From positions 22,770 to 59,147 of the forward strand of contig PGXW01000029.1 in the NCBI GenBank assembly GCA_002839355.1: a stretch of 36,378 bases of DNA, given 5' to 3'. The notes under the pieces were generated by a model. The model saw only the letters and a list, made by a program, of their open reading frames with translations. It was not told where the DNA came from and ran no database searches. Below, in pieces: positions 6,226-24,148 of this stretch. A program made the translations under genes and the position numbers. The DNA comes from Spirochaetae bacterium HGW-Spirochaetae-2 (GTDB taxonomy: Bacteria; Spirochaetota; Spirochaetia; Sphaerochaetales; Sphaerochaetaceae). Numbering within the stretch: the stretch's first letter is position 1; each line of letters opens with the position of its first letter.

Positions 6226-6416
6226 TAAAAAAGGACCCGCGGCGCCGTTCGGAGGTTATCTCTTGAACCTAAGGTTCAAGGGGGAAACTAGGTGCCGAGC
6301 ATTCTGTTCCCTAAAAGGAGGCGAACCTCCCGGGATCAATTCAACTCGGCTATACCGAATCCCGTAAATGTTGTTTGAGCCAAGAGAACTGTCTCTTCAC
6401 GAACACCGCAGGCCCA
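6226..6416 (-). ncRNA. ssrS: 6S RNA
   Basis: 6S RNA binds the housekeeping RNA polymerase holoenzyme and tunes transcription in slow growth. On the reverse strand the 5' end GGGCCTGCGG (from 6415) pairs with CCGCGGGTCC (ending 6233) over ten base pairs including G-U pairs. GTTCG then pairs with CGAAC across a bulge. The 3' half carries CCTTGAACCTTAGGTTCAAG, closely matching the conserved CCTTGAACC-N-GGTTCAAG segment of proteobacterial 6S RNA. A T-run follows the closing stem and forms an intrinsic terminator. The size of about 185 bases is typical. It lies between the rplT/coiled-coil unit and the TPR gene on the same strand. The stretch has no credible ORF. Confidence 0.85.
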
Positions 6417-6449
6417 ATAATTTCAAATCAATGCTACCATAGTAAACAA

Positions 6450-11960: not shown

Positions 11961-12000
11961 ATGATATCGATACATAAAGAGACAATAAAAGGTGTTGCCA

Positions 12001-12135
12001 CCCCAGGGCAAGCCCAGGAAAGAGGATGCTTTGCCTCCCGTTCCGCCCCAAGGGGCGAGGTGTCAAACCTTACGTTTCCTGCACTTGCTCGGGAAAGCGA
12101 CCATTCCATGGTCCTTTTCCACTCGCTTCGTTTGG
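12001..12135 (+). repeat. Hairpin-rich dispersed repeat, copy A
   Basis: This 135-base stretch matches the reverse complement of 20045-20180 with about 20 differences by hand alignment, roughly 85% identical. It folds as a string of hairpins: CCAGGGC-AA-GCCCAGG (one mismatch), GGATGC-TTT-GCCTCC (one mismatch), CGCCCC-AA-GGGGCG, and GACCAT-TCC-ATGGTC. It lies in the predicted 5' leader of trxA. Stems here are slightly more degenerate than in copy B. Confidence 0.8.
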
Positions 12136-12144
12136 AAATAAATC

Positions 12145-12175: not shown

Positions 12176-12493
12176 ATGATCACACACGTGACAGAACAGA
12201 CATTTGAAAAGGAAGTATTGCAGTCCGAGGTACCGGTACTGGTCGATTTCTGGGCAGCCTGGTGCGGGCCTTGCCGCATACAGGGAGAAATCCTGGATGC
12301 CTTCGACAAGGATATTGGCGATGGCAAGGCGAAGATTTGTAAAGTCGATGTCGATACCGAACAGAATTTGGCTTACGACTATCAAGTGATGAGCATTCCC
12401 ACCATGATTGCATTCAAGAATGGTAAAGTATTGACCAAACAGGTGGGAGTCCGCAATGAATCCATGCTCCGCAGCATGCTTGGAATAGCTTGA
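12176..12493 (+). CDS. trxA: Thioredoxin
   Basis: A 105-residue thioredoxin with the active site WCGPC (Cys30 and Cys33), preceded by VLVDFWAAWC, and the cis-proline loop MSIPTMI. It reduces disulfides, probably including those of the divergent peroxiredoxin, and is recycled by TrxB. The ATG at 12176 follows AAGGAG by six bases; the open frame extends 50 codons upstream through a repeat and is not thioredoxin-like. The predicted leader from the promoter near 11955 is about 210 bases and contains hairpin repeat copy A. An intrinsic terminator follows, shared in position with the convergent regulator gene. Confidence 0.95.
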   Translation: MITHVTEQTFEKEVLQSEVPVLVDFWAAWCGPCRIQGEILDAFDKDIGDGKAKICKVDVDTEQNLAYDYQVMSIPTMIAFKNGKVLTKQVGVRNESMLRSMLGIA

Positions 12494-18260: not shown

Positions 18261-19109
18261 ATGGCATATGAAGAATCTGTATTGAAAAGACTGAGAAGGA
18301 TATCGGCACAACTTCGGTTGGATATACTTGAGATGATTCCACCTGGAAAGGTCGGGCATCTGGGTGGAAGCAGCTCGATTGCCGATGTGGTTGCAGCATT
18401 GTATTTCCACCACATGCGGGTGAATCCCAAGGATGTTGCCGATCCGAAGCGTGATCGTCTGGTATTCAGCAAGGGGCACGCGGTACTCGCCCAGTACGCG
18501 GCCCTGGTGGAGCTGGGGATCGTGGATCGCAGCGAGTTGCCCAAGGTGAAGACATTGGACGGTGTCCTGCAAGGACACCCCGACATGGACAAGACTCCCG
18601 GTATCGAGGCGGTGACCGGCTCGCTGGGACAAGGCCTGTCCATATCGGTTGGTATGGCTCTTGCATTGCGACTGGACGGTAGCGACTCGAGGGTCTATAC
18701 GGTATGTGGAGACGGCGAGCTCTCCGAGGGGCAGATATGGGAGGCCGCCATGGCCGCCGATGTGTTCAAGCTGGACAATATTACGGCTATAGTCGATTGG
18801 AATGGTATCCAGGCCACCGGTTGTACCGCCGAGATATTCTTAATCGGCAAACTGGCCGACAAATGGCATGCTTTCGGTTGGAATGTCATAGAAATCGATG
18901 GGCATGATATGGTTTCGATCTTGAATGGATTGGAATCCGCAAAGGCCCACAAAGGCCAACCGAGCGTGTTGTTGGCAAAGACTGTGAAAGGCAAGGGGTT
19001 CTCTTTTGCCGAGGGAAAGGCTGCCTTCCATAACGCAGGTCTAACCGAAGAACAATTCGCACTGGGGCGCGAGGAGATGCGCAAGATGCTGCAGGAGGTG
19101 GACGCATGA
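18261..19109 (+). CDS. Transketolase, N-terminal subunit
   Basis: The pyrophosphate-binding half of a split transketolase, 282 residues. The thiamine diphosphate/metal motif is GDGELSEGQIWEAAM followed by NITAIVDWNG; GHLGGSSS, SKGHAV and GSLGQGL mark the active-site loops. It transfers a two-carbon ketol unit together with the C-terminal subunit encoded next. GAAGG precedes the ATG. The stop overlaps the following gene as ATGA. Split transketolases in catabolic operons often act on unusual sugars or sugar acids rather than in the pentose phosphate pathway, so this one is probably dedicated to the imported substrate. Confidence 0.92.
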   Translation: MAYEESVLKRLRRISAQLRLDILEMIPPGKVGHLGGSSSIADVVAALYFHHMRVNPKDVADPKRDRLVFSKGHAVLAQYAALVELGIVDRSELPKVKTLDGVLQGHPDMDKTPGIEAVTGSLGQGLSISVGMALALRLDGSDSRVYTVCGDGELSEGQIWEAAMAADVFKLDNITAIVDWNGIQATGCTAEIFLIGKLADKWHAFGWNVIEIDGHDMVSILNGLESAKAHKGQPSVLLAKTVKGKGFSFAEGKAAFHNAGLTEEQFALGREEMRKMLQEVDA

Positions 19110-20041
19110 GCAGGATGGAGAGTCTGAGAAAAGCATATGGTGAGCAATTGGCTGACTCGGGGGCCAATGACCAGCGGATAGTGACGCTTGAGGCCGATCT
19201 CGGGAAATCGACCATGTCTTGCCTGTTCCAGGACAAGCAACCGGAACGGTATTTCCAAGTTGGTATAGCAGAACAGAATATGGCATCTATAGCCGCTGGG
19301 TTGGCTTTGACTGGAAAAGTGGCCTTCATCAACTCGTTCGCGGTGTTCGCAACCGGACGCGCGTATGACCAGATCCGGAGTTCGATAGCAATTCCGTGTC
19401 TCAATGTGAAGATTTGTGGTTCCAGTGCGGGACTTAGTGATTTTGGGGATGGAAAGACGCACCAGTCTATCGATGATATCGCCTTGATGCGTGTGCTTCC
19501 CAACATGACCGTACTGTCGCCTGTAGACGCTGTCGAGACAAAGAAGATGGTCGAGGCTATGGTCGACCACGACGGTCCCGCCTACATCCGGATAAACCGC
19601 AACGACCTGCCGGTACTTACCGACGGGAACGAGCCGTACTACATTGGCAAGATGAGTCGGATGCGTGACGGCAAGGATGTTGTCGTGTTCGCCTCGGGAG
19701 TAATGGTTTCGCTGGCGTTGGAAGCGGCCGAGCTGCTTGAAAGCCAGGGGATTTCCATTCGCGTGGTGAACGTGAGTACTATCAAGCCCTTGGATACGAA
19801 GGCTTTGGCAAGCTATTGCGAGGGCATGAAGGGTGTGGTGACCGCTGAGGAACACAGCATCCATTGTGGCTTGGGAAGTGCCATCGCAGAAGCCTTGGGA
19901 ACGAGCAGGCTCCCTATCACGTTCCTTGGAATCAACGATACTTTCGGAACAAGTGCCAAGAACTACGAGGAACTGATGGAGAGATATGGGCTGACAAGTG
20001 AAGGAATCGTGAAGAAGGTTCACGAAGTTCTTGAAGCCTGA
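19106..20041 (+). CDS. Transketolase, C-terminal subunit
   Basis: The pyrimidine-binding and C-terminal half of the split transketolase, 311 residues. The aminopyrimidine-binding region includes the catalytic glutamate in YFQVGIAEQNM near residue 55 and a following phenylalanine-rich loop. The conserved GLSDFGDGKTHQSIDD loop and the C-terminal domain (GVVTAEEHSIHCGLGSAIAE) are intact. It shares a four-base overlap with the N-terminal subunit, so the two are made in equal amounts. A hairpin-rich repeat separates it from the GarR-like gene. Confidence 0.92.
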   Translation: MSRMESLRKAYGEQLADSGANDQRIVTLEADLGKSTMSCLFQDKQPERYFQVGIAEQNMASIAAGLALTGKVAFINSFAVFATGRAYDQIRSSIAIPCLNVKICGSSAGLSDFGDGKTHQSIDDIALMRVLPNMTVLSPVDAVETKKMVEAMVDHDGPAYIRINRNDLPVLTDGNEPYYIGKMSRMRDGKDVVVFASGVMVSLALEAAELLESQGISIRVVNVSTIKPLDTKALASYCEGMKGVVTAEEHSIHCGLGSAIAEALGTSRLPITFLGINDTFGTSAKNYEELMERYGLTSEGIVKKVHEVLEA

Positions 20042-20044
20042 TTG

Positions 20045-20180
20045 CCAAACGAAGCGAGAGGAAAGGGACCAAGGGATGGTCACTCTCCCGAGCGAGTGCA
20101 GGCAACGTAAGGATCCATACCTCGCCCCTTGGGGCGAAAAAGGAGGCGAAGCCTCCACTTTCCAGGGCTTGCCCTGGGGG
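20045..20180 (-). repeat. Hairpin-rich dispersed repeat, copy B
   Basis: The reverse complement matches copy A at 12001-12135, about 85% by hand alignment. The hairpins are CCAGGGC-AA-GCCCTGG, GGAGGC-TTC-GCCTCC, CGCCCC-AA-GGGGCG, CACTC/GAGTG and GACCA/TGGTC, all perfect here. It sits in the 167-base gap between the transketolase C-subunit and the GarR-like gene, on the transcribed strand of the operon, and contains no plausible gene. Confidence 0.8.
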
Positions 20181-20208
20181 TATTGATCCCTTTCATTGGA
20201 GGATAACG

Positions 20209-21096
20209 ATGAAAATTGGATTTATAGGATTGGGAATCATGGGCAAGCCCATGGCCAAGAATCTGTTGAAAGCCGGATATGAATTGAACGTGTATGATGT
20301 GAACAAGACCGCGGTTGCGGAAGTTGTCGCGTCGGGGGCGAAAGAGGCCTCCAGTTCCCGGGAAGCCGCATCACATGTCGATGTGGTCATAACCATGCTG
20401 CCGAACTCCCCCCATGTGAAGGAAGTGGTGCTCGGTGCGGGGGGTGTTGTAGAAGGAATCGCAGCGGGTACCATCCTGGTCGATATGAGTTCGATCGCGC
20501 CGCTGGTGAGCAAGGAGGTTTCCGCCGAACTGGAAAAACTTGGCGTCGTCATGCTTGATGCTCCGGTGAGTGGTGGAGAACCGAAGGCTATCGAAGGGAC
20601 ACTGGCCATAATGGTGGGAGGTCCTGCGGATGCCTTCGCAAAGGTGGAATCCCTACTCGGCGTGTTGGGCGCCAGTGTCACCCATGTCGGGGATATCGGC
20701 AGCGGAAACATGGCCAAACTTGCCAACCAGATCATGGTTGCCTCGAATATAGCGGGAATGTCGGAAGCTTTGGTCCTTGCATCGAAGGCTGGAGTCGATC
20801 CTTCGGTCGTATACCAGGCGGTACGTGCGGGATTGGCGGGGAGTACGGTATTGGACGCGAAAGCTCCGATGGTCCTCGCAGGCAACTTCAAGCCGGGATT
20901 CCGAATCGAGTTGCATATCAAGGATTTGCAGAACGCATTGGACACAGCCGAGCAGCTTGAGGTTCCGACTCCCATGAGTACTGCGATTATCGGCATGATG
21001 CGCGAGTTGCAGCAGGATGGAAAGGGTGGGGACGATCATGGTGGGCTTATCCAATACTATGAGAAGGTCTCCCACATTACAGCCAGGGCAAAATAA
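20209..21096 (+). CDS. 2-hydroxy-3-oxopropionate reductase / 3-hydroxyisobutyrate dehydrogenase family
   Basis: A 295-residue beta-hydroxyacid dehydrogenase. The NAD(P)-binding GFIGLGIMGKPMAKNL is at residues 4-19, the substrate-binding DAPVSGGEPKAIEGTL at about 117-132, and the catalytic lysine is Lys170 in GSGNMAKLANQ. Closest named families are GarR/GlxR tartronate semialdehyde reductase and 3-hydroxyisobutyrate dehydrogenase; they cannot be separated by eye. TTGGAGG precedes the ATG. As last gene of the operon it may reduce a three-carbon semialdehyde formed from the imported acid to glycerate or a related hydroxy acid. Confidence 0.88.
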   Translation: MKIGFIGLGIMGKPMAKNLLKAGYELNVYDVNKTAVAEVVASGAKEASSSREAASHVDVVITMLPNSPHVKEVVLGAGGVVEGIAAGTILVDMSSIAPLVSKEVSAELEKLGVVMLDAPVSGGEPKAIEGTLAIMVGGPADAFAKVESLLGVLGASVTHVGDIGSGNMAKLANQIMVASNIAGMSEALVLASKAGVDPSVVYQAVRAGLAGSTVLDAKAPMVLAGNFKPGFRIELHIKDLQNALDTAEQLEVPTPMSTAIIGMMRELQQDGKGGDDHGGLIQYYEKVSHITARAK

Positions 21097-24064: not shown

Positions 24065-24148
24065 GCCGAAATGGTGGAATTGGTAGACACAAGGGACTTA
24101 AAATCCCTTGCTCGTAAGGGCGTGCGGGTTCAAGTCCCGCTTTCGGCA
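24065..24148 (+). tRNA. tRNA-Leu (anticodon TAA)
   Basis: The acceptor arms GCCGAAA and TTTCGGC pair perfectly, the T arm GCGGG-TTCAAGT-CCCGC is canonical, the anticodon stem AGGGA/TCCCT encloses CTTAAAA with TAA at 24099-24101, and the long variable arm is of leucine type. The length is 84 bases with discriminator A; CCA is not encoded. It borders the AT-rich islet. Confidence 0.97.

Follow-up and report, generated by a model that had tools for sequence, protein, structure and literature searches.

Is the repeat that occurs twice, in inverted orientation, in the window (i.e., the whole 36,378-nt stretch of spirochaete DNA that was analysed) a mobile element or a structured RNA module? An earlier note, made from the sequence alone, had named both readings for a 136-base segment at 20045-20180. 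A repeat search of the window confirmed the second inverted copy, for which the earlier note had given about 85% similarity: 12001-12139 and 20041-20179 form an inverted pair of 139 nt that is 86% complementary, the second-best inverted pair of the window being 31 nt long. While the repeat is real, the lengths of complete copies showed that the segment first described is 16 nt too short; the element is 154 nt long, with its true end ...GATACCTTTCAT at 20196 (CTTTCAT). The two copies are referred to here as copy A (about 11985-12137, minus strand) and copy B (Table 1). For the window, the earlier remark that neither a transposase nor terminal repeats are visible is right.

Copy B spans the gap between the TGA of the transketolase gene, which is itself part of the target TGAT, and the GGAGG of the dehydrogenase gene, which stands directly 3' of the element. 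Copy A lies in the divergent gap between a peroxiredoxin gene (minus strand) and a thioredoxin gene (plus strand), in the 5' region of the latter and antisense to trxA. Frames +1 and -3 of the element (window 20041-20196) are without a stop codon, and the same holds for a copy in the genome G120. An Rfam search of the window at the gathering threshold matched only a 6S RNA (6230-6417, minus strand, above the gathering score) and a tRNA gene (24065-24148, plus strand), with no match at the element.

Table 1. Features of the two copies and of their surroundings in the window
Feature	Position	Strand	Evidence or remark
Copy A	11985-12139	-	covariance model match G000:C80:34754-34908; 12139 to 12138 = target AT
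Thioredoxin gene adjoining copy A	12176-12493	+	Pfam PF00085
Transketolase C-terminal half, upstream of copy B	19106-20041	+	Pfam PF02779, PF02780
TGAT target-site sequence 5' of copy B	20039-20042	+	sequence; target consensus TT(C/G)AT^T, 73 copies
Copy B, inserted element, 154 nt	20043-20196	+	covariance model match E 1.2e-44; empty orthologous site in G001 (L224); between transketolase C-terminal subunit gene and 2-hydroxy-3-oxopropionate-reductase-like dehydrogenase gene
Left domain, long imperfect hairpin H1 (TTGCC...GGCAA)	20042-20105	+	helices 1-3: 12/17 pairs two-sided
Right domain	20109-20192	+	closed by AAGG 20109-20112 / CCTT 20189-20192 and ATACC 20117-20121 / GGTAT 20179-20183; helices 4, 5
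Hairpin H2 (CGCCCC/GGGGCG)	20123-20136	+	helix 6: 5/7 pairs two-sided
Hairpin H3 (GGAGGC/GCCTCC)	20142-20156	+	helix 7: 4/5 pairs two-sided
Hairpin H4 (CCAGGGC/GCCCTGG)	20162-20177	+	helix 8: 1/5 pairs two-sided, least variable
3' terminus TTTCAT, presumed right cleavage site	20191-20196	+	same motif as target; invariant in selected complete copies
3-Hydroxyisobutyrate / 2-hydroxy-3-oxopropionate dehydrogenase family gene, downstream of copy B	20209-21096	+	Pfam PF03446, PF14833

Copies, empty sites and target

The search for further copies that the earlier note had proposed was carried out in the genome to which the window belongs (G000, 3.6 Mb, 86 contigs). BLAST found 44 places, and a covariance model built from 35 copies of three genomes found 78 matches at E<=0.01, showing that the repeat belongs to a large dispersed family. 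The element is present in 24 of 297 Spirochaetia genomes and reaches 83 copies in G082 (Sphaerochaeta); a search of the literature on repeats in Sphaerochaeta found no paper. Complete, identical copies stand at unrelated sites in G120, which indicates recent movement there. There is also a short form of ~90 nt, in which the left hairpin and the 3' end are retained but the middle hairpins are missing; tandem copies follow one another directly, TTTCAT being joined to GCCAAACG (TTTCAT^GCC).

Three copies in G000 (L022:1418-1729, L071 in reverse and L012) lie inside one other repeated sequence, which is 83-98% alike outside the element; at the point that they share, one has the long form and another the short form, reflecting either repeated insertion at one target or recombination that exchanges forms. 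A tandem of a short and a long form in G000 (L005, G000:C60) corresponds to a single long copy at the same site in G001 (L055, G001:C28). A recent copy in G120 (L167, G120:C52) seems to break a frame that is continuous in G118 (L190, G118:C254), the net insert shifting the frame; judging from this pair, the element appears able to insert into genes. Divergent families in other spirochaete families (L325-L327 in G207, L321-L324 in G139) keep the architecture with changed stem sequences. A pattern scan of genome contigs for the H2-H3 pair gave no match.

Empty sites, which the earlier note had also suggested looking for, were found with clean junctions for both window copies and in several relatives. 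In G001, the site of copy B reads GAAGCCTAAT^TGGAGG and is 95% identical across the junction, the net insert being 154 nt; GAAGCCTAAT^TGGAGGACGACGATG in G001 corresponds to ...CCTGAT(TGCC...TTTCAT)TGGAGGATAACGATG in the window. Copy A is missing at the orthologous place in the same genome (L226, 83% identity). More empty sites, all with exact junctions and 74-97% identity, came from comparing other G000 copies with G001 and G002, and copies of G120 and G082 with Sphaerochaeta relatives. Across 73 copies, the five bases 5' of the element are T (52/73), T (66/73), C or G (61/73), A and T, and a T follows its 3' end in 63 of the 73. Flanks and empty sites together place the insertion 3' of TT(C/G)AT, a short fixed motif of the IS200/IS605 type. 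Some other copies, copy A among them, end in TTTTAT. Its dozens of copies, the empty sites, the target motif and the identical copies of recent origin mark the repeat as a mobile element and bear out the small non-autonomous element suggested earlier.

Such an element could be a MITE of a double-strand (DDE) transposon, i.e., an internal-deletion relic moved by a cut-and-paste transposase with duplication of an AT target. Its multi-copy, intergenic and non-coding character and its empty sites would suit such a relic, as would the AT that stands on both sides of filled sites, an AT duplication being indistinguishable from the shared TTSAT motif. However, terminal inverted repeats were sought at the element ends and are absent (5' TGCCAAACG vs. 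3' complement ATGAAAGGT), and the target motif is the element's own 3' end. Moreover, the replication-strand bias and the covarying single-strand fold over the whole length, both described below, would be unexpected for a plain MITE. We consider this origin very unlikely.

Fold and replication strand

In a class-wide alignment of 28 copies from the Spirochaetia, the structure given by RNAalifold contains 43 pairs, 25 of them with two-sided changes, so that covarying stems, the test proposed in the earlier note, are found across copies. Two-sided cells number 118, compared with 28.0 in shuffles, and 0 of 500 shuffles were as high. Sliding the partners lowered the pairing from 95% to 36-51%, a percentage that leans towards the fold because RNAalifold used this same alignment; the covariation result, with its shuffle control, is not tied to the RNAalifold prediction alone. 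For the 35 copies from Sphaerochaetaceae, pairing reaches 95.7% of cells, and 28 cells are two-sided, compared with 7.3 in shuffles; the copies from further families of the class strengthen the covariation much beyond this set.

The repeat is thus structured, as had been suggested, though the strong covariation lies elsewhere than in the CACTC/GAGTG stem singled out at first: those columns pair in 87% of cells in the 35 Sphaerochaetaceae copies and in 67% class-wide, vs. 95-96% for the covarying fold. Nor does the fold consist of five equal successive hairpins; instead, the long imperfect hairpin H1 is followed by a domain that is closed by AAGG/CCTT and ATACC/GGTAT and holds three hairpins. 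The same two domains, with the right domain closed alike, appear when the short form and one G120 copy are folded by minimum energy. The idea that the middle hairpins are a passenger, drawn from the short form without them, was weakened, as these hairpins covary across the class. On the top strand, G.T cells outnumber A.C cells (36 vs. 15), which fits selection on that strand. The covariation fits a folded DNA or a folded RNA, and we infer that the molecule acts as DNA.

An expectation had been set beforehand that the top strand, if the element is IS200/IS605-like, should lie on the strand of positive GC skew (the lagging-strand template), the strands being assigned by local GC skew rather than by mapped origins. 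The copies in G082 are one-sided per contig (68/81 concordant vs. 54.6 expected, 0/20000 shuffles), and their orientation follows GC skew (21/6 vs. 6/26, p=6.6e-6); where the skew is beyond 0.02, the positive-GC-skew strand carries 43 of 48 copies (p=1.4e-8). The corresponding count for the own genome is 27/39 (p=0.024), and only this GC-skew test is significant there, the per-contig strand concordance alone (45/59 vs. 42.7 expected) being not significant. Gene direction is a possible confounder; the bias persists in both genomes together where the nearest gene is on the other strand (24 vs. 8, p=0.007), with nearest genes called crudely as 150-aa open frames. The orientation of the element thus follows the lagging-strand template, as judged by GC skew.

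Under the other reading in the earlier note, a structured RNA module, the repeat would have spread by its usefulness at the RNA level, as an mRNA stabiliser, attenuator or sRNA. This would account for the strong covariation, for the excess of G.T over A.C on one strand and for the place of copy B in a probably transcribed operon gap. However, a substrate of single-stranded DNA would explain the fold equally well, own-genome copies are co-oriented with the nearest gene in 25 cases and opposed in 23, copy A is antisense to trxA, and the bias that exists follows the replication strand. Copies within open frames, short deletion forms and the empty Rfam result at the element in the window also speak against it. 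We regard an RNA module as highly improbable; the same orientation counts, antisense copy and strand bias leave the suggested effects on mRNA stability without support.

Candidate transposase

The element is probably non-autonomous and transposes as a folded DNA single strand, most likely via a RAYT-type Y1 transposase acting in trans. In the proposed mechanism, the top strand (5'-H1-[H2,H3,H4]-TTTCAT-3') would be exposed in the lagging-strand template, where a Y1 (HUH) transposase, most likely a RAYT-type protein encoded elsewhere in the genome, would recognise the left hairpin in its folded form together with the closed domain on the right. Cleavage by this enzyme would occur at two places, a TTSAT-like site on the 5' side of the element and the TTTCAT with which the element ends; the element would then be joined to the 3' side of another TT(C/G)AT in single-stranded DNA, in most cases in the lagging-strand template. 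Inspection by eye only revealed no convincing guide tetranucleotide 5' of the hairpins and complementary to the cleavage sites.

Only two Y1_Tnp (PF01797) genes are present in the own genome, both RAYT-type. Their proteins are 33% identical to each other and RAYT-like by NCBIfam (REP_Tyr_transpos), yet below the model cut-off; in the C4 RAYT, the Y1_Tnp core scores above the Pfam cut-off, whereas HTH_23 at the C-terminus matches weakly and stays below it (E 0.002). No PDB sequence relatives of the RAYT were found at E<=0.01. Directly next to the C4 RAYT stop codon lies an element copy (E 4e-19), which may have been inserted there by chance. It is the only copy found by BLAST and the covariance model in flanks of up to ~1.5 kb at 22 RAYT loci, and no full copy lies in the examined flanks at the RAYTs of Sphaerochaeta, G001 and G007 or at the second G000 RAYT; the arrangement therefore does not look like a typical REPtron.

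RAYT and element co-occur in 118 Sphaerochaetaceae genomes (both, RAYT only, element only, neither: 13/4/2/99, p=3e-12) and in 26 Sphaerochaeta genomes (9/4/1/12, p=0.004), in tests that ignore phylogeny; four RAYT-bearing Sphaerochaeta genomes are without any copy. The link is weaker class-wide than within the Sphaerochaetaceae, only 10 of the 24 genomes that carry the element having a RAYT match at E<=1e-10. G139 and G207 (at least 10 copies among those listed, 97-99% complete) gave no RAYT match at E<=1e-10 in a search that covered RAYT matches only. The only RAYT relative of G001 (L093, G001:C124:208-1008) has an in-frame TAG, although G001 has many copies, and may be a mobiliser that was lost recently.

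The element could also be moved by an ordinary TnpA of the IS200 type instead of a RAYT and would then be a non-autonomous IS200/IS605 derivative. The signatures of the mechanism would be identical, and IS200-type Y1 genes are present in G001, G082, G120 and others; however, all Y1 matches listed for the own genome, G104, G107, G078 and G130 are of the RAYT type, and the element is present in only one (G118) of the 61 family genomes with a Y1 gene but without a RAYT relative. This alternative appears unlikely. Because RAYT loci other than C4 are without copies and RAYT matches reach only 10 of 24 genomes class-wide, the two parts of the preferred reading are graded separately: single-strand movement of the Y1 type is held with high confidence, whereas the RAYT as the moving enzyme is favoured with moderate confidence. 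Tentatively, and at somewhat less than even expectation, folded single-stranded DNA elements throughout the Spirochaetia may serve RAYTs of the subclass 2.1 type as a substrate mobilised in trans; these enzymes would read the two-domain fold and not a short palindrome.

Relation to known systems

The element resembles REP, BIME and REPIN sequences with their TnpAREP (RAYT) in being non-coding, hairpin-forming, multi-copy and mostly intergenic, in its tie to a Y1 RAYT in trans and in its tandem arrays. While similar in these respects, we note differences. First, REP is a palindrome of 20-40 nt, whereas the element has 154 nt (short form ~90 nt) and a two-domain multi-hairpin fold. Second, REP has GT[AG]G at its 5' foot, whereas the element alignments contain no conserved GTAG or GTGG foot. 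Third, REP tandems alternate, whereas the element tandems are in direct orientation. Fourth, the RAYT of a REPtron is flanked by copies, whereas here the RAYT is mostly unflanked.

IS200/IS605 elements (IS608, ISDra2) share with the element subterminal hairpins without terminal inverted repeats, insertion 3' of a short motif, an element end that resembles the target and a lagging-strand-template bias. ISDra2 inserts 3' of TTGAT (PMC2806898), and a preference for the lagging-strand template was reported for IS608 and ISDra2 (PMC5371812). However, the element has neither tnpA nor tnpB and carries extra hairpins between its end structures; with 154 nt and no gene, it works like, rather than is, an IS200/IS605 element. 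MITEs and PATEs (palindrome-associated transposable elements) are likewise short non-autonomous mobile DNA, MITEs differing by their terminal inverted repeats. The closest precedent is the TIRYT genes described with inverted-repeat families (PMC3733652), whose partners, unlike the element, are inverted repeats around the gene.

With its HUH/Y1 core and weak C-terminal HTH-like stretch, the own-genome RAYT may resemble TnpAY1 subclass 2.1 (RAYT group 1). RAYTs of this subclass occur in ~15% of surveyed strains, and automatic and manual searches found no REP-like partners for them (PMC6006769). The element suggests a concrete substrate for them, one whose ends, target and fold are known. It also clearly exemplifies class-wide bacterial covariation that points to a folded DNA strand, and it should be useful as a marker of recent genome change in environmental spirochaetes. 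Since it has neither the length and GTAG foot of REP nor the coding content of IS200/IS605, we class it as a variant among RAYT-associated non-autonomous elements, best read as REP/MITE-like but long and with several hairpins, and as mobilised in trans by a RAYT that may resemble subclass 2.1.
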